The translations under genes and the position numbers were made by a program. A stretch of 64,000 nucleotides of DNA from an uncultured Acidimicrobiales bacterium (GTDB taxonomy: Bacteria > Actinomycetota > Acidimicrobiia > Acidimicrobiales > Aldehydirespiratoraceae): positions 1,004,277 through 1,068,276 of the forward strand of contig CATQHS010000001.1 in NCBI GenBank assembly GCA_958296055.1. Direction: 5' to 3'. Below the pieces are notes generated by a model. The model ran no database searches and was not told the origin of the DNA. It worked only from the letters and a program-made list of their open reading frames with translations. This document shows, piece by piece, positions 5,863 through 53,257 of this stretch (the first letter of the stretch is position 1; the number at the start of each line of letters is the position of its first letter).

Positions 5863-7356
5863 GTGCCCAAGCGCTCCGCTCACCTCCCCCTGGCAGCCGC
5901 CCTAGCCCTAGGGCTCGCGGCCGCCATCGCCTCCGCCTGCAGCGGCGACGACGACTCGGCCATGCGATCCGAGACGCAGGCCGAGATGGCCGCGCTGCAA
6001 GCCAACACGAACAACGAGATGGCCGCGCTCGAGTCTGAGATGCAGGGCCAGATGGACCAGATGGCCGAGATGGGTTCCCAGATGCAGAGCGCTATGGCCG
6101 AGATGGAGTCGAGGCTGGACTCGCTGGAATCGCTCGAATCGGAGATGCAGAGCCAGATGGCCGGGATGCAGGCCGAGATGATGTCTGAGATGCAGGGCGG
6201 GATGGCCGACATGGCGGCCGAGATGCGAAGCGAGGCGACCGGCGTGGTCGAGCGGGTCAAAAAGCAGGTCGCAGGAGCCATCGAGCGCTACGAGGAGGTC
6301 GGCGAGGCCGTCTTTGAGGAGATCACCTCCAGCGGCGACTACATCGACGGCGAATTCTACGTTTACGTCCTAGACGCCGACGGCGTGATCCTCGCCCACC
6401 CCGTCAACCCCGACACAGTCGGCGAGAACAACTACGACATGCAAGACAGCACCGGGACGTTCATCGTGCGGGGCATCCTCGACGCCGCCACCCCCGAAGG
6501 CGCCTGGACCGCCTACCGGACCATCAACCCGGTCACCGGCCAAGAGGAGCCCAAGCGAAGCTGGGTGGTCACCCACGACGGCCTGGTGTTCGGCTCCGGC
6601 TACTACAACGATGTGGTCGCGCAGGTCAAGGACCAGGTGGCGGCGGCCATCGAGCGCTACGAGGAGGTCGGCGAGGCCGCCTTAGGGGAGATCACCTCCA
6701 GCGGCGACTACATCGACGGCGAAGTCTACGTTTTCGTCGGGGACGCCGAAGGCGCGATCCTCGCCCACGCGGCCAACCCGGACCTGGTCGGCCAGAACCT
6801 CTACGACCTGCAGGACAGCACCGGGGCGTTCATCGTGCGGGGCATCCTCGACGCCGCCACCCCCGACGGGGCCTGGACCACCTACCGATTCGCCAACCCG
6901 GTCACCGGCCAAGAGGAGCCCAAGCACACTTGGGCGGTCGACCACGACGGCCTGGTGTTCGGCTCCGGCTACTACATCAACGAGGCCGAGCTGGCCCAGG
7001 ACATGGTGGCGGCCGCCATCGAGCGCTACCAGGAGGTGGGCCCCGCCGCCTTCGAGGAGATCACCTTCAGCGGCGACTACGCCAGCGGCGAGGTCTATGT
7101 GTACGTCGCGGGGCCCGGCGGCGTGGAACTCGCCCACGCCGCCAACGCCGACCTGGTCGGCCAAGACCTGTCCGACACGCAGGACAGCACCGGGGCGTTC
7201 ATCACCCGGGGCATCTTCGACAACGCCACCCCCGACGGGTCTTGGACCACCTACCGGTTCATCAACCCGGTCACCGGCCAAGAGGAACCCAAGCATAGCT
7301 GGGTGGTCCTCTACAACGGCCTGGTGTTCGGCTCCGGCTACTACACCGACCCCTGA
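5863..7356 (+). CDS. secreted lipoprotein with coiled coil and three tandem Cache-like domains
   Basis: lipobox ASAC, Met/Glu-rich heptad segment, three repeats of AIERYEEVGEA..EITSSGDYIDGE.YVYV.D..G.ILAH..NPD.VG... Confidence 0.8.
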   Translation: MPKRSAHLPLAAALALGLAAAIASACSGDDDSAMRSETQAEMAALQANTNNEMAALESEMQGQMDQMAEMGSQMQSAMAEMESRLDSLESLESEMQSQMAGMQAEMMSEMQGGMADMAAEMRSEATGVVERVKKQVAGAIERYEEVGEAVFEEITSSGDYIDGEFYVYVLDADGVILAHPVNPDTVGENNYDMQDSTGTFIVRGILDAATPEGAWTAYRTINPVTGQEEPKRSWVVTHDGLVFGSGYYNDVVAQVKDQVAAAIERYEEVGEAALGEITSSGDYIDGEVYVFVGDAEGAILAHAANPDLVGQNLYDLQDSTGAFIVRGILDAATPDGAWTTYRFANPVTGQEEPKHTWAVDHDGLVFGSGYYINEAELAQDMVAAAIERYQEVGPAAFEEITFSGDYASGEVYVYVAGPGGVELAHAANADLVGQDLSDTQDSTGAFITRGIFDNATPDGSWTTYRFINPVTGQEEPKHSWVVLYNGLVFGSGYYTDP

Positions 7357-19687: not shown

Positions 19688-20599
19688 TCATCGGGTGGGC
19701 GTCACATAAAGCTCGTAGTCGCCGTCGCGCTCGCTGGTGAACAGGATGAGGGACCCGTCCGGCGACCAGACCGCGTAGAAGTCCTCGTGGTCGTTATCGG
19801 TCAACTGCTGCACATCTGAGCCGTCGGCGTCCATGGCGTAAACCTCGAAGTCGCCGTCGCGCTCGCTGGTGAACAGGATACGGGACCCGTCCGGCGACCA
19901 ACTGACGCTGCCGATCCAGTCGCCGTGGCCGCTGTCGGTCAACTGCTGCACATCTGAGCCGTCGGCGTTCATCACGAAAACGTCTCTGTTGCCGGGACCG
20001 TACTGGTAGCCGGCGAAGAGAATGCGGGCGCCGTCCGGCGACCAGACGGGGATCAGGTCGTCGTGGCCGTTGTCGGTCAACTGCTGCGTGTTCGAGCCGT
20101 CGGCGTCCATGACGTGGATCTCAAAGTCGCCGTCGCCGTCATTGGCAAAGAGGATGCGGGCGCCGTCGGGCGACCAGCCCGCATCCCAGTCGTTGGAGTC
20201 GTTGTCGGTCAACTGCTGCACATCAGAGCCGTCGGCGGCGGCGACATACACCTCGAAATCGCCGCCACGGTCGCTGGTGAACAGGATGCGGGCACCGTCG
20301 GGCGACCATCCCGCGCCGACTACCCAGTCGAGGTAATCGTTGTCGGTCAACTGCCGCACATCGGAACCGTCGGCGTCGGCGACATAGACCTCGAAATCGC
20401 CGTCATGGTCGCTGGCGAAGAGGATGCGGGCGCCGTCGGGCGACCATCCCGCGTTGCTCCAGCCTTCGTAGCCGCCGTCGGTCAACCGCTGCGCCTCCAC
20501 ATCGATCGAGTCGGAGCCTCCGCCGCATGCACCGGCAGCGATCGCCAGCACCCCCAACGCCAGAGCGCACCTCGCCGGACGATCGACCAGCGGTTTCAT
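19688..20599 (-). CDS. PD40/TolB-like beta-propeller lipoprotein
   Basis: lipobox AGACG; repeated WSPDGARILFASDHDGDFEVYVADADGSDVQQLTDN. Confidence 0.85.
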   Translation of the reverse strand: MKPLVDRPARCALALGVLAIAAGACGGGSDSIDVEAQRLTDGGYEGWSNAGWSPDGARILFASDHDGDFEVYVADADGSDVRQLTDNDYLDWVVGAGWSPDGARILFTSDRGGDFEVYVAAADGSDVQQLTDNDSNDWDAGWSPDGARILFANDGDGDFEIHVMDADGSNTQQLTDNGHDDLIPVWSPDGARILFAGYQYGPGNRDVFVMNADGSDVQQLTDSGHGDWIGSVSWSPDGSRILFTSERDGDFEVYAMDADGSDVQQLTDNDHEDFYAVWSPDGSLILFTSERDGDYELYVTPTR

Positions 20600-27087: not shown

Positions 27088-28890
27088 CTATTGAGGAACC
27101 TGAATCACATAAAGATCCACATTGCTGTCGCCAGGATCCACATCGTCGTCGGGGTCGCTGTATATTAGTATGCGAGAACCATCCGGAGACCACCGACCTC
27201 GCTCGTCGCCGGGCCAGTCAGTCAACCGAATCCAGTTCAACCCATCAACACCCACCACATAAACATCCCTGTTCTTGTCGCCGTCGGGGTCGCCGTTGAG
27301 TAGTATGCGAGAACCATCCGGAGACCATTCACCCCACTCGTCGCCGGGCCAGTCAGTCAACCTAACCCAGTTCAACCCATCAACACCCACCACATAAACA
27401 TCCCTGTTATCAACATACTGCTTCTTTTCGTTGTAGAGGTTGCGGTATATTAGTATGTGGGAACCATCTGGAGACCATTCACCCCACTCGTCGCCGAGCC
27501 AGTCAGTCAACCTAACCCAGTTCGACCCATCAACACCCACCACATAAACATCCCCGGTTACGTAGTGGCTGTCATTGACTTCTATTGTGCGTATTAGTAT
27601 GCGAGAACCATCTGGAGACCACGTAGGCCACCTGTAGGCGGGCCAGTCAGTCAACTCAACCCAGTTCGACCCATCAACACTCACCACATAAACGCTCCCG
27701 TTGCCTTCTATTAATATGTGAGAACCATCTGGAAACCAATCACCCCGCTTGTAGCCGGGCCAGTCAGTCAACCGAATCCAGTTCAACCCATCAACACCCA
27801 CCACATAAAGATCCACATTGCTGTCGCCAGGATCCACATCGTCGTCGGGGTCGCTGTATATTAGTATGTGAGAACCATCTGGAGACCACTCACCCCACTT
27901 GTCGCCGGGCCAGTCAGTCAACTGAACCCAGTTCGATCCATCAACACCCACCACATAAAGATCCCGGTTGTCGTAGTCGTCGGGGTCGTCGGGGTTGCTG
28001 TATATTAGTATGTGAGAACCATCTGGAGACCACTCACCCCACTTGTAGCCGGGCCAGTCAGTCAACTGAACCCAGTTCGATCCATCAACACCCACCACAT
28101 AAACATCCCTGTTCTTGTCGCCGTCGGGGTCGCCGTTGAGTAGTATGCGAGAACCATCTGGAGACCACTCACCCCACTCGTAGCCGGGCCAGTCAGTCAA
28201 CTGAACCCAGTTCGATCCATCAACACCCACCACATAAACATCCCTGTTCTTGTCGCCGTCGGGGTCGCCGTTGAGTAGTATGCGAGAACCATCTGGAGAC
28301 CACTCACCCCACTCGTAGCCGGGCCAGTCAGTCAACTGGAATACGTCACCATAGACTGGCTCTTCTGAGGGTGGCGCAGCGACCGCCGGCAACTCAGACA
28401 CTGCTTGCCCCTCAACAACCGACTCTTGCACAGGTGGCACTTGCCCCTCAACAACCGACTCTTGCACAGGTGGCGCAGCGACCGCCGGCAACTCAGACAC
28501 TGCTTGCCCCTCAACAACCGACTCTTGCACAGGTGGCACTTGCCCCTCAACAACCGACTCTTGCACAGGTGGCGCAGCGACCGCCGGCAACTCAGACACT
28601 GCTTGCCCCTCAACAACCGACTCTTGCACAGGTGGCGCAGCGACCGCCGGCAACTCAGGCACTGCTTGCCCCTCAACAACCGACTCTTGCGCTGGCACTG
28701 CTTCCGATGTACCACCCGCACCTTCACCATTGCTACATGCCTGAATGATGATAAACAGAATCACAAAAGGCGACGCCGCAACCCTCGTGATCCATCTCCT
28801 CGGCCCGGTCGCCTGACCAGCCCAGAATCCTTCAAATCTAACTCGCTCAGCCCAGCCGCGCCAAGCACCAACCGCAGATGAATCGCTCAT
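27088..28890 (-). CDS. PD40-repeat beta-propeller protein with N-terminal low-complexity repeats
   Basis: about nine VVGVDGSNWVQLTDWPGYEWGEWSPDGSRILL repeats; N-terminal VQESVVEGQAVSELPAVAAPP repeats. Confidence 0.85.
   Translation of the reverse strand: MSDSSAVGAWRGWAERVRFEGFWAGQATGPRRWITRVAASPFVILFIIIQACSNGEGAGGTSEAVPAQESVVEGQAVPELPAVAAPPVQESVVEGQAVSELPAVAAPPVQESVVEGQVPPVQESVVEGQAVSELPAVAAPPVQESVVEGQVPPVQESVVEGQAVSELPAVAAPPSEEPVYGDVFQLTDWPGYEWGEWSPDGSRILLNGDPDGDKNRDVYVVGVDGSNWVQLTDWPGYEWGEWSPDGSRILLNGDPDGDKNRDVYVVGVDGSNWVQLTDWPGYKWGEWSPDGSHILIYSNPDDPDDYDNRDLYVVGVDGSNWVQLTDWPGDKWGEWSPDGSHILIYSDPDDDVDPGDSNVDLYVVGVDGLNWIRLTDWPGYKRGDWFPDGSHILIEGNGSVYVVSVDGSNWVELTDWPAYRWPTWSPDGSRILIRTIEVNDSHYVTGDVYVVGVDGSNWVRLTDWLGDEWGEWSPDGSHILIYRNLYNEKKQYVDNRDVYVVGVDGLNWVRLTDWPGDEWGEWSPDGSRILLNGDPDGDKNRDVYVVGVDGLNWIRLTDWPGDERGRWSPDGSRILIYSDPDDDVDPGDSNVDLYVIQVPQ
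28365..28692. repeat. 63/36-bp mixed tandem repeat array in PD40 gene
   Basis: alternating ccgccggcaactcagacactgcttgcccctcaacaaccgactcttgcacaggtggc units. Confidence 0.85.
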
Positions 28891-44041: not shown

Positions 44042-47000
44042 ATGCGCGAGTTCCTGCCCGAGCGGGATTACATCGGGTGGTCGGCCCCGGAAGGGTTTCC
44101 GGCGTCGCTCGCTCCGGCGGGCCTGTTCACGCAGGACGCGCCCAACGGGCTAGAGGTGGCGCTGGCGCAAAGCCCCCGAAAGCCCAGCGCCGCCGACCTG
44201 CGCCGGGCTTGGTCCAAGCGCCGGGCCGGTCGGGCGAGCCCGGTGCTGATCGTCGCCTGCTACCCGACCGCCGAGGGCGAGCGGGTCTCGCTGTGCGGCC
44301 CGGCGGGCGAGCCGCCGATCGTGCAGCCCGATGTGGAGGTGTCGCAGGCCGAGCGGCTGGCCGGAGTGGCGCTCGACGAGCCCAACCGCCACGCCGCCAC
44401 CCGGTTCCTGCTGGCCCACCTGCCCGAGCTGGACCAGCCCATGCCCGGCCTGCGCAACGTCGGCCTGCTGGCCACCCAGGAACTGAAGGCCGGAGTGCCC
44501 CGACGAACCGACTGGCCCGAGGCCAGCCGCCGGGCCCAGCCTCTGCTGAGCCTGAGGGGCCGCCCGCTGGCCGAAGGCCTGGGGTTCGGCGTGGAGGTCC
44601 TGTCCACCAACACGTCGATGCTCACCATCGGCGGGCGCAACCGGGCCATTGCCGTCTTCTGCGACGAGGACGAGCCGTTCGACGCCCCGGCCCAGCGATT
44701 CGACGGCGCCTCCCCGGTGTCGAGGGCCCTGGCCGTGGCCGACCAGAAGGCGGTGGACTGGGTGATCCTCACCCGGTCCGCGGAGATCCGCCTGTACGCC
44801 GCCCGGGCCGACACCGGCGTGGGCCGCAAGGGCCGGGCCGAGACCTTCGTGGAGCTGAACCTCTCGCTGCTGCCCGCCGAGTTGGCCGGCTATCTGCACT
44901 TGCTGTTCTCGCCCGCCGCCCTAGCCGAGAACGGGACGCTGGAGCAGATCCTCAACCGCTCGGCCGACTTCGCCGCGGAGTTGGCCGTGCGGCTGCGGGA
45001 GCGGGTCTACTTCCAGACGGTTCCGGCCCTAGCCGAGGCCGTCGCCCGCAGGCTGGGCCGCCACCGGGACGACGCCGACTTGGACGACGCCTACGAGCAG
45101 GTGATGGTGATCCTGTTCCGGCTGCTGTTCGTGGCTTACGCCGAGGACAAGGACCTGCTCCCCTACCGCACCAACAACCACTACACCCACCACTCCCTGA
45201 AGCGCATGGCCCGCCGCCTCACCGAGGACCGCCGGTCCGGCCAGGAGCGCTACGACGACCAGGCCGCGTCGCTGTGGGACTACGTGCAGCAGCTCTGGCG
45301 GGCAGTCAACCAGGGCAACACCGGCTGGGGCGTGCCCGCCTACAACGGCGGCCTCTTCTCCGACGACCCGGCCGTGAGCCAGCCCGGGGCGGCGCTGACC
45401 TCGCTGCGGCTCACCGACGCCGAGCTGGCCCCGGCCCTGTCGGGGCTGCTGATCGACGAGGGCCCCGAGGGCACCGGGCCGGTGGACTTCCGGTCGTTGT
45501 CGGTCCGTGAGTTCGGCACCATCTACGAGGGGCTGCTCGAGTCGCGGCTGTCGGTGGCCCAAAGCGACCTCGCGGTGCGAAGGGTCAAGGGCCGTGACGA
45601 ATACGTCCCAGCCTCGGGCCGCGGCCCGGTGGCGGTCCCCGCCGGGGCGGTGTACGTACACAATCGGTCCGGGGCCCGCAAGGCCACCGGCTCCTATTTC
45701 ACCAAGCCGTTCGCGGTGAAGCACCTGCTCGACCACGGGCTGGAACCGGCGCTGGACAACCACATCGCCCGGCTGGAGGGGCTGAGGCAGGCCGGGGACG
45801 ACGCCGCGCTGGCCGACGCGTTCTTCGACTTCCGCAGCGCCGACATCGCCATGGGCTCGGGCCATTTCCTGGTGGCCACACTGGACCGGATCGAGGCCCG
45901 GCTGTCGGTCTGGCTGGCCCTGAACCCGGTCCCGGCGGTGACCGCCGAACTGCGGCGGCTGCGGGAGACGGCCGTGGAGGCTCTGGGCGATCTGGCCGCC
46001 GGGGTCGAGGTGGAGACCAGCTCGTTGTTGCGCCGCCAGGTGGCCCGGCACTGCATCTACGGCGTGGACCGCAACCAGGTGGCGGTCGAGCTGGCCCGCC
46101 TGGCCGTGTGGGTTCACACCTTCGTGCCCGGCCTGCCGCTGTCGTTCCTCGACCACAACCTGGTGTGCGGCGACAGCCTCACCGGCGTGGGCACTCTCGA
46201 CGAGGCGCTGGCCGCCTTTGACCCCGATGCCGAGCCCGACGCCCCGAGCCTTTATCGCAGCCAGTTGGAGGAAATGCTGGCCGCGGCCGAGAGCGCACTG
46301 CGGAGACTGGCCCGCACTTCCGACGCCACCAAGCGGGAGATCGACGAAGCCCGAACCGCCCACCGGGATGCCCAGCGAGCGGTAGTCGGGGCCCGGGCGC
46401 TGTTCGACTTGATCACCGCCCACCGGGCCGGGGCCTGCGCCCTGCCCGAGCACTTTGACCAGTCTGTCTTCATCCGCGAGAGCGGCCGGCCCGCCGTGGT
46501 CGAAGCGGTGGAATCGCTGGCCCCGGTGCACTTCCCGGCCGCCTTCCCGGAGGTGTTCCTGCGGGAGCGCCCCGGCTTCGACTGCCTGCTGGGCAACCCG
46601 CCCTGGGAGAAGGTGATGGTCGAACTGAAGGTTTGGTGGGGGCGGCACATACCGGGAGTGCGATCTCAGAACGAGCGGGAGATGAACGACGCCATCGACG
46701 AGATGCGCCGGTCCCGGCCTGACCTGGAGGCCCTTTACCAGAGCGACATCCTCCACAACAACCGGATGAGGGCCGTGTTGTTGGCCGGGCCCTATCCGGG
46801 GATGGGCCGCTCCCATCCCGACCTGTACAAGGCCTTCGCCTGGCGGAACTGGCACCTTGCCCGTCCCGAAACCGGCCATGTCGGAATCGTGCTGCCCCGA
46901 ACCGCCTTCGCCGACCACGGCATGTCCACCTGGCGACACGACATGCTCTTACGAGCTTCTCTGCACCTGACCACCCTGCGGAACAAAGTGCACTGGGTTT

Positions 47001-47599
47001 TCGACGACATTCACCAGCAATACCAGGTCTGTTTGGTGGCCATCCATAATTCGTCGGACGCCGATCGAACGCTCGCCCTCATGGGGCCCTTCCATGACCG
47101 CGTCCACTACATGATGGGGATGGCGCTTCAGCCGAGCAGGATCCCCATCGACGAGTTCAATGCGTGGACGTCGAACGCGGCCGTGCCCATGCTGCCGTCC
47201 GATCAGGCGCTCCGGGTGTTCCGCAAGATGCGCCTGCATCCGCGGTTCGACGGGTCCACCCCCAGCGTTGACTCACCAAGTAGAATTAGTAGGCTAAGTA
47301 CCGGGATGTACCGGGATGTACCGGGATGTACCGGGATGTACCGGGATGTACCGGGAGCCGGTTCCGGTTACTTCAGGAACTCAACGCCACTGCGGACCGG
47401 GGGCTGTTCCGCCGGGGGATCAATCCGGATGGCAGTCCCGTCTCATCTGGGAGTTCGACGCGGGCAAGGACAAGGTCCTCTTCGTCCGAGACGCCGGAGC
47501 GGGGGCAGTGAATTCCGACCGCGACTTCTGGCCGGTGTACACGGGAAAGTCGTTCAACCTGTGGAACCCCGACACCGGGGAGTACTCGTCGTCGGCTGA
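44042..47599 (+). CDS. Eco57I/PglX-like N6-adenine DNA methyltransferase, N-terminal and catalytic part, frameshifted at the 10-bp repeat
   Basis: [21 protein letters not shown] motif [12 protein letters not shown] motif IV; similarity lost after about 47290. Confidence 0.8.
47299..47356. repeat. 10-bp tandem repeat TACCGGGATG x5 plus 8-bp partial
   Basis: direct reading of the tract; unit length not divisible by 3. Confidence 0.97.
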
Positions 47600-48257
47600 C
47601 CCCGAGACGGTGACGGAGGCGCTTCAGCGGAAGCGCCGCAACGGCCACCGGAACCGGCGGTCGGCCTTCTCGGAGATGCCCGCGGCCTGGATCGAGGACC
47701 CGCAGACCCTGCCCTGCCTCCGCCCCCGGATCGCCGTCCGCGACACCGCAAGAAGCTCGGACACCCGAACGGTGATCGCCGCGCTGGTGCCCGGCGAGTT
47801 GGTCATCACCCACCAGGCCCCCTACCTGCTGCGGATCAGGGGCACCGAGAGGGACGAGGCCTTCCTGATCGGGGTGCTCTCGTCGATGATCCTCGACTGG
47901 TACGCCCGGCGGGTGGTGGAGCTGCACCTCACCGCCAGCATCCTCGACAACTTCCCCATCCCCGACGCCGACATCAACAACGACCCCACCGCCCGCCGAA
48001 CGGTCGAGATCGCCGGCCGGCTGGCCGCCGTCGACCACCGGTTCGCCGGATGGGCCGCCGCGGTGGGGGTGCCGGTCGGCTCAGCCAACGACGAGCCCAT
48101 CAAATCCGACCTCATCTGCGAACTCGACGCCTGCGTCGCCCGCCTCTACGGCCTCGACGAGGACGACCTGGCCGTCGTCTACGGCACCTTCCACGAAGGC
48201 GCCGACTACTCCGACCGTCTGGCCGCGGTGCTCGCCCACTTCCGGCGGCTGCCGTGA
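47316..48257 (+). CDS. C-terminal part of the same methyltransferase in a different frame
   Basis: [51 protein letters not shown] typical C-terminal region; overlaps helicase start. Confidence 0.7.
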   Translation: MYRDVPGCTGMYREPVPVTSGTQRHCGPGAVPPGDQSGWQSRLIWEFDAGKDKVLFVRDAGAGAVNSDRDFWPVYTGKSFNLWNPDTGEYSSSADPETVTEALQRKRRNGHRNRRSAFSEMPAAWIEDPQTLPCLRPRIAVRDTARSSDTRTVIAALVPGELVITHQAPYLLRIRGTERDEAFLIGVLSSMILDWYARRVVELHLTASILDNFPIPDADINNDPTARRTVEIAGRLAAVDHRFAGWAAAVGVPVGSANDEPIKSDLICELDACVARLYGLDEDDLAVVYGTFHEGADYSDRLAAVLAHFRRLP

Positions 48258-51200
48258 CCCCGAACCAAGCCGGCCCAGCCGCCGGTCCGCCGCCGGGCAC
48301 CGCTGCCGACACGCGGCCGGAAGCCGCCAGCCCGCCGGGCCCAGCCGCCGACCCGAAGCCGGAGTTGGCCGTCAACCGGGGCGGGCGGACGGTGGCCGAT
48401 TCGGTCAACGAGTTCATAACCCATGCCGCCACCGGATTCGCGGCCGGCGCCCGCCTCGACATCGCCACCGCCTTCTTCAACGCGGGCGGCTACTCGCTGC
48501 TGGCCGACTCGCTGGACCGGCTGACCGGGGCCCGGCTGCTGCTGGGCGCCGAGCCCGCCCCGCCGGAGAAACGCCGCCGGATGCTGGGCGTCGAATCGGC
48601 CAAGCCGGAGCGGGCCGGCCGCGCCCGCCTCAACCGGGCGCTGGAAAGCCACGAGCGCCATCTGGCCGACGACCGGGACCTGATCGGGTTCACCTGGGAG
48701 GCCGACGCCGCGGCCCGCCGCCTGGTCGGCTGGCTGCGGTCGCCCGAAGTGCGGGTGCGCCGGCTGGAGGGGCGGTTCCTTCACGGCAAGGCCTTCCTGA
48801 TCGCCGACAACAGCCACGGCGTGGTGGCCGGCTCGTCCAACTTCACCCGGGCCGGGCTGACCGCCAACGTCGAGCTGAACCTGGGCAACTACTCGCCCCA
48901 CACCGTGAGGCTGGTGCGGGAATGGTTCGACGAGCTGTGGGACGAGGCCGCCGACTACGACCTGGCCGCCCTGTTCGAGGCCCGCTTCGAGCCCCACCCG
49001 CCCCAGCTCGTCTACCTGCGGATGCTGTGGGAGCGCTACGGCGCCGAGCTGAGCGCGGAGGCCGAGGCCGAGGGCGTGCCGCAGATCCACCTCACCTCCT
49101 TCCAGGCCGACGGGCTCTGGCGGGCCAAGCGCATCCTGGCCCAACACAACGGTGTGCTCGTGGCCGACGAGGTGGGCCTGGGCAAGACCTTCCTGGCCGG
49201 CGAGCTGATCCGCGAGGCGGCCATCGACCGGCGCCAGCGGGTGCTGGTGATCGCCCCGGCCACGCTGCGTGACGGGCTCTGGCGGGCGTTCCGATCCGAG
49301 CACACCCTCCCCATGGAGCTGGTCTCCTACGAGGAGCTGATGGCCGACCGGCGGCTCAACCCGGACCACGCCGCCGGACCGAGGCTCGAAGCCAAGCGGA
49401 TCGACGACTACGCCATGGTGGTGATCGACGAGGCTCACAACCTCCGCAACCCGGCCACCCAACGGGCCGAGGCGCTGCGCCGCCTGCTGGCCGGGTCGCC
49501 GCCTAAGAAGCTGGTGCTGCTCACCGCCACCCCGGTGAACAACAGCCTCTGGGACCTCTACCACCAGCTCGGCTACTTCCTGCGCAACGACGCCGCCTTC
49601 GCCGACGCGGGCATTCCGTCGCTGCGCGACCACTTCGCTCGGGCCATGTCGCTGAACCCCGACGACCTGACCCCCGAGCACCTCTTCGACGTCCTCGACG
49701 CGGTGGCGGTCCGGCGCACCCGGTCGTTCGTGAAGCGCTACTACCCCAACGACACCGTGCGGGTCGGCGGCTCCGAGCAGACGATCACCTTCCCCACGCC
49801 GCGGGTGCTCAAAGTGACCTACGACCTCGACGCGGTGCTGCCCGGCTTCTTCGACCGCATCGCCCGGGCCCTCGACCCCGACGGGCCCGTCGACGCCCCC
49901 GACACCCTCACCCTGGCCCGGTACGCCCCGTCGATGTACCGCCTCGACCAGCCCCCCGAGGGCTACGAGATGCAGCTCGCGGGGCTGCTGCTGTCGGGGC
50001 TGCTGAAGCGGTTCGAGTCGTCGCCTCACGCCTTCGCCGAGACGTGCGAGCGGATGGCCAACAGCCACGACGCCTTCCTGGCGCTGCTGGACCAGGGCCG
50101 GGTGGCCACCGGCGACGCCCTGGCCGACTGGATCGCCACCGACTCCGACGACCTCGAAGAGGTGGACGCCTACCTCGACGCCCATCTCGGGCTGACCGAC
50201 GCCGCCGCCGGCTACGACACCGAGGGGCTGCGCCGCCACGTGGCCCGAGACCGCGACCTCCTGGTTTCGTTCGCGGCCACCGCCCGCACCGTGACCCGCT
50301 CGGAGGACCCCACCCTGACCGAGCTGACCCGACAGCTCGGCGACATCGCCGAGGAGGCGGCCGCGGCCGGGATCGGCCCCGAGGACGTGCGCAACCGGCG
50401 CAAGGTGCTGATCTTCAGCTACTTCACCGACACGGTGGACTGGATCTACGGGCACTTGGACGAGGCCGTGAAGGCCGACGAGCGGCTGGCCCCGTACCGG
50501 GGCCGCATCGCCTCGCTGGGCGGGCAGAGCGGGGCGGCCGGCAAGGAGGCGGTGGTGTGGGGGTTCGCGCCCCGCACCTCCGACGCCCCCGAGGGCTCCG
50601 ACGACGACCTCTACGACATCGTGGTCACCACCGACGTGCTGGCCGAGGGGGTGAACCTGCAACAGGCCCGCCACATCATCAACTACGACCTGCCGTGGAA
50701 CCCGATGCGCCTGGTGCAGCGCCACGGCCGCATCGACCGGATCGGCTCGCCCCACCGCGAGGTGTTCGTGCGCTGCGTGTTCCCCGACGCCCGCCTCGAC
50801 GACCTCCTCAACCTGGAGGAGCAGCTCCACCGCAAGATCAAGCAGGCCGCGGCCAGCGTCGGCGTGGGCGAGGTGCTGCCCGAGCAGCGGGGCCAGGACC
50901 TCACCTTCGCCGAGACCCGGGAGGAGATCGAGCGCATCCGCCGCCAGGAGGCCGGCCTGCTGGAGCGGGGCGGCACCACCCGGGGGGCTCTGTCGGGCGA
51001 GGAGTACCGCCAGGAGCTGCGCCAGGCCATCGAGCAGGGGTGGCGCGAGCCGATCGAGCGGCTGCCGTGGGGCTCGGGTTCGGGCATGGCGGCCCGGGCC
51101 GGGAGCGGCGGCCGTGTGGGCTACGTGTTCTGCGCCCGGGTAGGCGACTCGGACCGGGCCCTGTTCCGCTATGTGGAACCGGGCGAGGGCGGCGGCGGAG

Positions 51201-51691
51201 GCAACGGCGGGAGCGGCCCGACGGTGGTGGCGGACACGCTGGCCTGTCTGGACCGGGCCCGGCCGCCCGACGGGTTCGACACGCCTAGAGCGCTCGACGA
51301 CGATGCCTACCGCCGGGCCTTCGGCGCTTGGGGGATCGCCCGGGCTGACATCGTGGAGCGCTGGAACCACCTGGCCGACAAGGCCAACCTCGAGCCGCGG
51401 GTGCCGTCGGCGCTGGTCCGGGCCGCGGAGATCCTGCGGGCTCACGCTCCGGCCGATCTCACCCAAGACGAGATCGACCGGGCCATCGACAGCCTCAGCG
51501 CTCCCTATCCCGAGCGCACCATCCGCACCGTCCGGGCCGCCGTGGCCGCCGACGACGACCCGGTCGGGCAGGCCGAGAGGATTCTCGGGGTGATCCGCAG
51601 CCTCGGCCTAGAGCCCTACGTCCCGCCCAAGCCGCTGCCGGAGATCACCGGCGACGACGTCCACCTGGTCTGTTGGCTCGCCCTGGTCTGA
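48254..51691 (+). CDS. PLD-domain SNF2-family helicase
   Basis: FLHGKAFLIADNSHGVVAGSSNFTRAGL (PLD HxK), ADEVGLGKTFLAGEL Walker A, VVIDEAHN, NPMRLVQRHGRIDRIGS; GTGA overlap with upstream ORF. Confidence 0.9.
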   Translation: MTPNQAGPAAGPPPGTAADTRPEAASPPGPAADPKPELAVNRGGRTVADSVNEFITHAATGFAAGARLDIATAFFNAGGYSLLADSLDRLTGARLLLGAEPAPPEKRRRMLGVESAKPERAGRARLNRALESHERHLADDRDLIGFTWEADAAARRLVGWLRSPEVRVRRLEGRFLHGKAFLIADNSHGVVAGSSNFTRAGLTANVELNLGNYSPHTVRLVREWFDELWDEAADYDLAALFEARFEPHPPQLVYLRMLWERYGAELSAEAEAEGVPQIHLTSFQADGLWRAKRILAQHNGVLVADEVGLGKTFLAGELIREAAIDRRQRVLVIAPATLRDGLWRAFRSEHTLPMELVSYEELMADRRLNPDHAAGPRLEAKRIDDYAMVVIDEAHNLRNPATQRAEALRRLLAGSPPKKLVLLTATPVNNSLWDLYHQLGYFLRNDAAFADAGIPSLRDHFARAMSLNPDDLTPEHLFDVLDAVAVRRTRSFVKRYYPNDTVRVGGSEQTITFPTPRVLKVTYDLDAVLPGFFDRIARALDPDGPVDAPDTLTLARYAPSMYRLDQPPEGYEMQLAGLLLSGLLKRFESSPHAFAETCERMANSHDAFLALLDQGRVATGDALADWIATDSDDLEEVDAYLDAHLGLTDAAAGYDTEGLRRHVARDRDLLVSFAATARTVTRSEDPTLTELTRQLGDIAEEAAAAGIGPEDVRNRRKVLIFSYFTDTVDWIYGHLDEAVKADERLAPYRGRIASLGGQSGAAGKEAVVWGFAPRTSDAPEGSDDDLYDIVVTTDVLAEGVNLQQARHIINYDLPWNPMRLVQRHGRIDRIGSPHREVFVRCVFPDARLDDLLNLEEQLHRKIKQAAASVGVGEVLPEQRGQDLTFAETREEIERIRRQEAGLLERGGTTRGALSGEEYRQELRQAIEQGWREPIERLPWGSGSGMAARAGSGGRVGYVFCARVGDSDRALFRYVEPGEGGGGGNGGSGPTVVADTLACLDRARPPDGFDTPRALDDDAYRRAFGAWGIARADIVERWNHLADKANLEPRVPSALVRAAEILRAHAPADLTQDEIDRAIDSLSAPYPERTIRTVRAAVAADDDPVGQAERILGVIRSLGLEPYVPPKPLPEITGDDVHLVCWLALV

Positions 51692-51799: not shown

Positions 51800-53257
51800 A
51801 TGTTCACGGAAACGGTCGAGTGCGTCGACAAGGACCTAGCCCGGCTGCTGGAAACGGCCCGGTCCGGGGAACTGCCGGTGGCCCGGCTCAAGGACCTGAT
51901 CGCGGCCAGCCGGTCCTGGGAGGCCAAGGTGGCCGCGTTGCAGACCGACGTGGCCCGGCTGATCGCGGCTCGGGAGCGCCACGGCGACGGCGGGGCCTCA
52001 GTGCTGCGCAACCAAGCCGGCAAGTCGAAGCTCCAAGCCCGCCGCAGCCTGGGCGCGGCCGAAGCGCTCGACGAGATGCCCGGGCTGCGCTCGGCGGTGG
52101 ACTCCGGGGAGGTGCCTTTGGCCAACGCCGAACGCCTGGCCGACGCCGCCCGCCGCACCAACCCCGAAACAGTGGACTCCGCCACCGACCTGGTGGCCAT
52201 GGCCAAAGAACTGCCCCCGGACCGGTTCGCCCGCGAAATCGGGGCCTGGACCCAGCGCCACCAGATCGACCACGGCCACGACGACTGGCTGAACAAGCGC
52301 CGCCGCCGGTATCTGCGGACCTGGAAGCAACAAGACGGCATGGTCCGCCTCGACGGCCTGTTAGACCCCGAGACCGGCACCCGCATCTGCAGCCGACTGG
52401 AAGGCACCGCCGAGGAGTTGCGCCGCCAAGACCAACAAGCAGCCCGCACCGGCAACAGCCCCGCCGCCAGCGCCAGCGACGGCCCGGCCGGCGACGGTCC
52501 GGCCGGCAGCCAAGGATCAGCGGCCGCCAGCGGCCCGGTCGGCGGCGAGGAGACCCGGTCTTGGGACCAACTCCGAGCCGACGCCTTGGATCTCTTGACC
52601 TCAGGAGAGGCGAAAGACCGCGGCAGCTCCAGCGGACGGCCCAAGGCCGAGGTGATCGTGGTGGCCGACATCGGAGTCCTCACCGGCGACAACCCCGCCG
52701 GGCGCTGCGAAATCCCCGGCACCGGGCCCGTGCCCCCCGCCGTACTCCAGCGCATCGCCTGCGACGCCCAACTCACCGGCCTCATATTCGCCGACGGCAA
52801 ACCCCTCTACCACGGCGCCACCGTGCGCACCGCCACCACCAAACAATGGCGAGCCCTCATCGCCCGCGACGGAGGCTGCATCGGCTGCGGCGCCGAACCC
52901 AACCGCTGCCACGCCCACCACGTCATCCCCTACGCCCAATCCCGACGAACCGACATCGAAAACCTCGTGCTCGTCTGCTGGCGCTGCCACCACAACATCC
53001 ACGACCACCACTGGCAAGTAACCCACCAAAACGGCAAACCCGCCCTCAAGCCCCCCGACCCCCAAACCCCGCCCAACCCCGCCGACGAAGGCGGGCACAG
53101 CCACAGCAGCGGCAACGCTCGCCGACCGCGACCAAGCCGCAGCCCGCAGCCAACCCGAGACCGAACCCGCCCCGCCCCGAGTCGCCCCAACCCGGGCCAT
53201 CCGGCCAGCAGCCCCGACCCACCCCGACAACCAGCACCCGCCCTCTTCAACCCCTGA
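51800..53257 (+). CDS. DUF222-HNH endonuclease domain protein (copy 3)
   Basis: CIGCGAEPNRCHAHHVIPYAQSRRTDIENLVLVCWRCHHNIHDHHW; close paralog of 1843-3195. Confidence 0.85.
   Translation: MFTETVECVDKDLARLLETARSGELPVARLKDLIAASRSWEAKVAALQTDVARLIAARERHGDGGASVLRNQAGKSKLQARRSLGAAEALDEMPGLRSAVDSGEVPLANAERLADAARRTNPETVDSATDLVAMAKELPPDRFAREIGAWTQRHQIDHGHDDWLNKRRRRYLRTWKQQDGMVRLDGLLDPETGTRICSRLEGTAEELRRQDQQAARTGNSPAASASDGPAGDGPAGSQGSAAASGPVGGEETRSWDQLRADALDLLTSGEAKDRGSSSGRPKAEVIVVADIGVLTGDNPAGRCEIPGTGPVPPAVLQRIACDAQLTGLIFADGKPLYHGATVRTATTKQWRALIARDGGCIGCGAEPNRCHAHHVIPYAQSRRTDIENLVLVCWRCHHNIHDHHWQVTHQNGKPALKPPDPQTPPNPADEGGHSHSSGNARRPRPSRSPQPTRDRTRPAPSRPNPGHPASSPDPPRQPAPALFNP

Follow-up and report, generated by a model that had tools for sequence, protein, structure and literature searches.

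The tandem repeat that interrupts an adenine-methylase gene in the window (the whole stretch of 64,000 nucleotides analyzed here) likely acts as a phase-variable selector of the reading frame, which would swap alternative DNA-recognition segments and fuse the recognition domain to the methylase or separate it. In the proposed mechanism, slipped-strand slippage in a non-triplet repeat would set which of the three frames the ribosome takes when leaving the tract. Past the tract, it would meet paralogous versions, in different frames, of one segment of about 20 residues that lies at the entrance of the target-recognition domain. The likely products would be a single-chain enzyme, a two-chain enzyme formed by coupled re-initiation, and a truncated form. 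The tract, the frames, their products, the conservation and the length variation in close relatives are all observed in the sequence.

Organization of the methylase gene in the window

The N-terminal (44042-47599) and C-terminal (47316-48257) open reading frames of the methylase gene lie in different frames and match the same PADLOC Type IIG model, in line with the original prediction of a methylase split at the repeat. The N-terminal part combines an RM-like N-terminus with a gamma-class methylase domain and matches the model up to profile position 1093. The following features were assigned:

44042..47254, + strand: N-terminal methylase part, up to ...LHPRFDG (PADLOC PDLC03620, E 2.7e-208; Pfam Eco57I, E 5e-9)
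46943..47050, + strand: equivalent of site A, a single in-frame segment without repeat (comparison with homologues)
47299..47356, + strand: switch tract, site B, (TACCGGGATG)5 then TACCGGGA
47353..47439, + strand: alternative unit 1, 29 residues, third frame (homologue unit array)
47427..47513, + strand: last unit, 29 residues, same frame as the C-terminal part, 74 bp past unit 1 (homologue unit array)
47496..47511, + strand: GGAG (47496-47499) and a GTG start (47508-47510) overlapping a TGA stop (47509-47511) (sequence)
47529..48257, + strand: C-terminal recognition part (PDLC03620 positions 1099-1372, E 7.8e-56)
48254..51691, + strand: PLD + SNF2 helicase, DrmD-like, with a GTG start overlapping the methylase stop (profile matches)

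The tract contains five perfect 10-bp copies (47299-47348) and an 8-bp partial copy (47349-47356), exactly as first described. Its run of period-10 matches spans 49 bases, against a maximum of 11 in 30 shuffles of the window. A genome search revealed no second occurrence in its own genome, and the tract was not found in 50 other genomes of the family. We also considered that an inserted repetitive element had carried the tract; this was rejected, because the 121-bp junction occurs just once in the genome. As background, the host genome was represented by the window and 400 kb of sampled stretches. Within these 464 kb, one further multi-base non-triplet array is comparable, a (TC)8.5 tract (L089 15436-15452; G000:C1 about 1555436), which is apparently intergenic. 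The window also contains long in-phase tandem repeats at 6243-7350, 19707-20454, 27143-28336 and 28370-28690 (units of 369, 138, 135-150 and 99 bp, respectively), which may encode repeat proteins and are unrelated to the finding.

The three frames of the window have three outcomes: a fusion, unit 1 followed by a stop at the C-terminal start codon, and OFF. With one copy fewer, a single open frame of 1401 aa is computed, which bears out the expectation that copy number shifts the frame and that removal of one unit joins both reading frames; this state would give the single-chain enzyme with the last unit. With one copy more, a product of 1159 aa results, since the frame of unit 1 ends at TGA 47509-47511 (assembled coordinates). 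Here, the unit-1 protein would be made and the C-terminal part would be produced separately from the overlapping start codon, with GTG 47508-47510 as a possible restart point. The copy number as assembled yields 1185 residues with an unrelated tail and would give neither product (OFF).

Conservation of the repeat site among homologues

Searches of 85,462 species together with family and class relatives yielded 26 distinct clade members, nearly all of them metagenome-assembled Acidimicrobiia or MAGs named just ‘bacterium’, several from sponges. A repeat is present at the identical point in all 23 homologues with a complete junction. Two further contigs (L041 and L045) end inside the tract, with the repeat at the same point, and the stretch of L018 stops before the junction and is counted outside the 23. 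The place is kept while the repeat sequence is replaced: the units comprise C or G runs, CT/TC, GA, CCGA, GTCC/GACC, CAGC, CGGT/CGGA, CCAT/CCAA, CGAGC, AGGCCGAC and the 10-bp unit, with sizes of 1, 2, 4, 5, 8 or 10 bp and never a multiple of 3 in the 23 complete junctions. The 26 members form one clade (100/100) in the tree, with one repeat-free member (L070) nested inside, and the other 12 homologues in the tree have no repeat. The repeat-free homologues that were checked encode one long open reading frame with no tract at the switch sites and, where the motif is readable, a single in-frame unit. The repeat sequence has been swapped many times, yet its frame-shifting property was kept except in one lineage with a single plain gene.

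Some loci show additional peculiarities. One assembled genome (MPNQ01, Sva0996 bin134) encodes two different loci of this methylase kind (L044 and L045). In L017 (71-104), runs of A11 and C16 that precede the methylase start by about 100 bp may represent a further switch of the promoter type. A second, probably decayed gene copy is found in G019 (L030 2758-3804); its two C-terminal domains are separated by about 750 bp.

A frame-rotated array of units behind site B

All parts follow the same order in the homologues: the HPRFDG end of the N-terminal part, the repeat tract, an array of units, and the C-terminal part starting from WPVYKGxSF. Each unit encodes W-x-x-R-P-x-x-E-x-x-A-T-x-D-K/R-x-x-F in its own frame. 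There are two or more units per locus, each of about 65 bp (74 bp in the window), and neighboring units are 65, 71 or 74 bp apart; as this distance is always 2 mod 3, successive units lie in successive frames. Three conserved unit types can be distinguished by their cores, being QGD-x-N (unit 1, which has one residue more than the others), AE-x-H (unit 2), and RE-x-D (unit 3). These cores are invariant across loci except for the drifted units of the window, which have strayed furthest from the consensus (WEFDAGKDK for RELDATNDK). For 52 of the 53 units, the nearest neighbor in another locus belongs to the same type, making the types orthologous across loci. The conserved-looking stretch that the original prediction had seen in the third frame (47362-47409) is real and represents unit 1 of this recurring array in its rotated frame, so the second indel suggested in the GGGGG runs is not needed. 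In one locus (L020 5186-5513) the array has grown to five units of 65 bp, which are 97% alike across four copies.

Judged from substitution patterns, each unit type appears to be under purifying selection in its own frame, with own-frame pN/pS values of 0.26, 0.33, and 0.40 for units 1, 2, and 3, respectively, versus 0.8-2.0 in the other frames (related, non-independent homologues). Unit 1 contains no stops in its other frames, versus 18.3 in synonymous shuffles (counts from related sequences, uncorrected for phylogeny), which fits the demand of the model that unit 1 be readable in every frame. Unit 2 has no stops in one other frame and nine in the second, and the count for the last unit is as expected. 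Stop codons in the middle unit of L035 count against the frame-selector reading.

The fate of each frame depends on the number of units. In two-unit loci, one frame reads the last unit and runs on into the C-terminal part, while the unit-1 frame mostly stops at a TGA that overlaps an NTG start in the C-terminal frame, 20 nt (14 in two loci) before WPVY, and the third frame reads no unit. In loci with three units, every frame reads one of them. The frame of the last unit often ends there at NTGA 11 nt before WPVY, and the frames of the earlier units end at GTGA or ATGA within the next unit. Several three-unit loci have no frame that yields a full fusion, so function there would depend on re-initiation. 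Both re-initiation and the translation of all frames are presumed. The ATGs that had been pointed out in the repeat of the window do occur in all three frames, and a restart inside the tract, as also suggested earlier, may take place; most homologous tracts are free of ATG, so this is not the conserved feature.

Additional switches at sites A and C

Many homologues contain a second repeat switch, and some a third one that chooses between tandem recognition domains. Site A is located about 100 residues upstream of site B and has its own tract in 18 homologues (poly-G/C, CT, GA-rich, AACAG, GCCGA, or 10-bp units). Behind this tract, two versions of a segment (SVATVINHKGWVFEGVHNSYTVAL / SVVTCLNTKQWAFDGVDGRYTVAL) are encoded in different frames, 92 or 104 bp apart (2 mod 3), with an own-frame pN/pS of 0.21 for both (related homologues). 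In L016 and L039, site A has no tract and the second A unit contains a stop codon; loss of the switch goes along with decay of the spare segment.

Some homologues have a G run within their C-terminal recognition part, termed site C, and most other long non-triplet arrays in 286 kb of homologous loci sit at this site. The poly-G tracts of site C are located as follows:

L042 10273-10283
L053 10281-10292
L043 10283-10304
L044 10260-10280
L019 5801-5824
L021 5598-5609

The first recognition domain is complete in L042 (G11). With the G12 run of L053, the domain is truncated at an ATGA, from which a second recognition domain, arranged in tandem, begins. Judged from these frames, the length of the tract in both loci would determine whether the first recognition domain is completed or terminates at the start codon of the second one.

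Length variation between close relatives

Over 3740 bp, L042 and L053 share 99.55% identity, and exactly two indels separate them, each located in a repeat (G9 vs G11 at site A; CT 11.5 vs 14.5 at site B). L042 and L043 (98.74% identical) likewise differ by exactly two indels, at the site A and site B tracts. This confinement of indels to the tracts reflects slippage in otherwise intact genes, and repeat length thus differs between close relatives with intact flanks in these three homologues. By extension, the window's own tract may vary within its population.

Predicted position of the switched segments in the enzyme

The repeat-free relative L070 was modeled with AlphaFold (mean pLDDT 83). 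The fold of the model matches BrxX-DNA, CamA-DNA, M.BseCI, M.TaqI, and MmeI, with PglX/BrxX being the best structural match. A phmmer sequence search for a solved relative gave no match, and profile searches gave weak matches only. Site A corresponds to a strand-loop-strand element at residues 611-643 of the L070 model and is placed by hhalign, in a weak profile alignment, at BrxX residues up to 615. Loop 587-601 of the BrxX methylase domain reads base pair 6 (PMC11842806), and the same alignment suggests that site A lies at or next to this loop. Site B is predicted, with moderate model confidence, at the entrance of the recognition domain; single-copy repeat-free relatives vary at the site-B slot (RELD, AEFH, NQELN, LGDLH). 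The profile alignment, weak as it is, and the fold similarity suggest with moderate confidence that the switches choose recognition segments. When units A and B were mapped residue by residue to the DNA contacts of BrxX (hhalign), the alignment got as far as the region of loop 587-601 only; we therefore infer the link between switch and specificity, and the swapped segments may alter DNA specificity or activity.

Alternative explanations

The original prediction combined a slippage-prone, frame-shifting tract with a simple ON/OFF switch. The non-triplet repeats across the clade and the differences in repeat number between near-identical relatives speak strongly for the former, and the latter turned out to be incomplete. 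Plain ON/OFF phase variation of one fused enzyme, with the extra units as duplication debris, would suit the two-unit loci, where only one frame gives the full fusion, and has a precedent in the G tracts of Cj0031 and PglX. Nevertheless, we consider it unlikely, because the extra units are under purifying selection in their own frames and fixed in order, unit 1 avoids stops in all frames, and several three-unit loci lack any fusing frame. It is far less probable that the tract is a variable-length linker between the methylase and the recognition domain with incidental effects on the frame. The open frame of the tract does encode low-complexity linkers (PASQ repeats in L036) and the number of 65-bp units varies, but a length device would favor units that are a multiple of 3, none of which is seen at site B, and the spacing is always 2 mod 3 with alternative frames that are conserved as protein.

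Least probable of all is that unrelated frameshifts break the gene in the window and its relatives, as a pseudogene or an assembly error. The window gene is indeed out of frame as assembled, and two contigs (L041, L045) terminate within the tract. Against this, assemblies made independently from many samples all have a non-triplet repeat at this position, near-identical relatives have indels in the tracts only, and coding constraint is intact in the units and on both flanks of the tract. A pseudogene was rejected based on the own-frame pN/pS, the confinement of indels to tracts, and the avoidance of stops in unit 1.

Comparison with known phase-variable systems

The closest systems in their working are the two-tract Type IIG enzymes of Helicobacter pylori, NgoAV, and C-terminal phase variation. 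The H. pylori enzymes JHP1272 (Hpy99XIV) and HP1353-HP1354 (HpyAXVI) are, as here, single-chain adenine methylases with two slippery tracts, one of which switches activity while the second changes the motif by adding a C-terminal recognition domain (PMC3936762). They differ in having homopolymers only and no homologous spare segments in different frames, and their switch adds a domain instead of choosing among variants of one segment. C-terminal phase variation in Helicobacter canadensis (PMC2823697) and Neisseria gonorrhoeae (PMC5320596) shares a late repeat with different C-termini in the three frames, some fused with the downstream gene; a different protein end from each frame is also what we found here. 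However, the alternative ends in those species are not described as homologous conserved modules, and there is no rotating-frame array or stop/start overlap. In N. gonorrhoeae, slippage of a poly-G tract in NgoAV hsdS joins specificity parts or splits them and alters the target motif (PMC9577141, PMC6789123), although this is a Type I system with a separate S subunit, one tract, and two states. The Type IIG gene Cj0031 of Campylobacter jejuni is also split into two open reading frames by an internal tract (PMC4889913), but it is an ON/OFF switch with a G9 homopolymer and no alternative segments. The pglX gene of Streptomyces coelicolor encodes an actinobacterial anti-phage adenine methylase under a repeat switch (PMC4365076), which works ON/OFF by G8/G7 and, unlike this locus, is part of BREX/Pgl.

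Known slippage switches mostly toggle a gene between ON and OFF, or attach or detach one of its ends, whereas here selection retained homologous alternatives of a segment, each in a different frame, downstream of a repeat whose sequence was often replaced. In the open-access literature, we found no case in which a repeat is followed by homologous segments that are maintained in different frames, and there is a fair chance that such frame-multiplexed spare segments deserve their own name. A broader reading, which we offer tentatively as a serious possibility, is that the frames store alternative modules. Two or three homologous recognition segments behind one slippery repeat, with up to three switches per gene (motif-VIII loop, recognition-domain entrance, and tandem-domain choice), could form a combinatorial generator of specificity that works by slippage alone, without recombination. 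If the frame-selector reading holds, one gene could yield several variant enzymes in sponge-associated Acidimicrobiia; if confirmed, this would be a compact route to diversify a DNA-recognition enzyme, with a bearing on phage defense in sponge symbionts. Annotation pipelines will label such genes as broken.

Gene neighborhood and type of the defense system

The pair of the methylase and the PLD-SNF2 helicase is conserved in the homologues. Methylase and recognition domain are encoded in one gene, PDLC03620 matches both halves, and the fold matches gamma-class methylases that have a recognition domain, in agreement with a Type IIG enzyme; no match to a nuclease family was found in the methylase N-terminus. 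The BREX-like assignment of the original prediction does not hold, as the best PglX score is 19.7 versus a cut-off of 400 (homologue L036) and the conserved neighbor is a helicase. DISARM does not appear to fit either, with the helicase scoring 168 bits for DrmD versus a cut-off of 610. Just downstream of the system, the window encodes a DUF222/HNH endonuclease (13E12-type; 51800-53257), and a gene resembling it sits inside the operon in L036.
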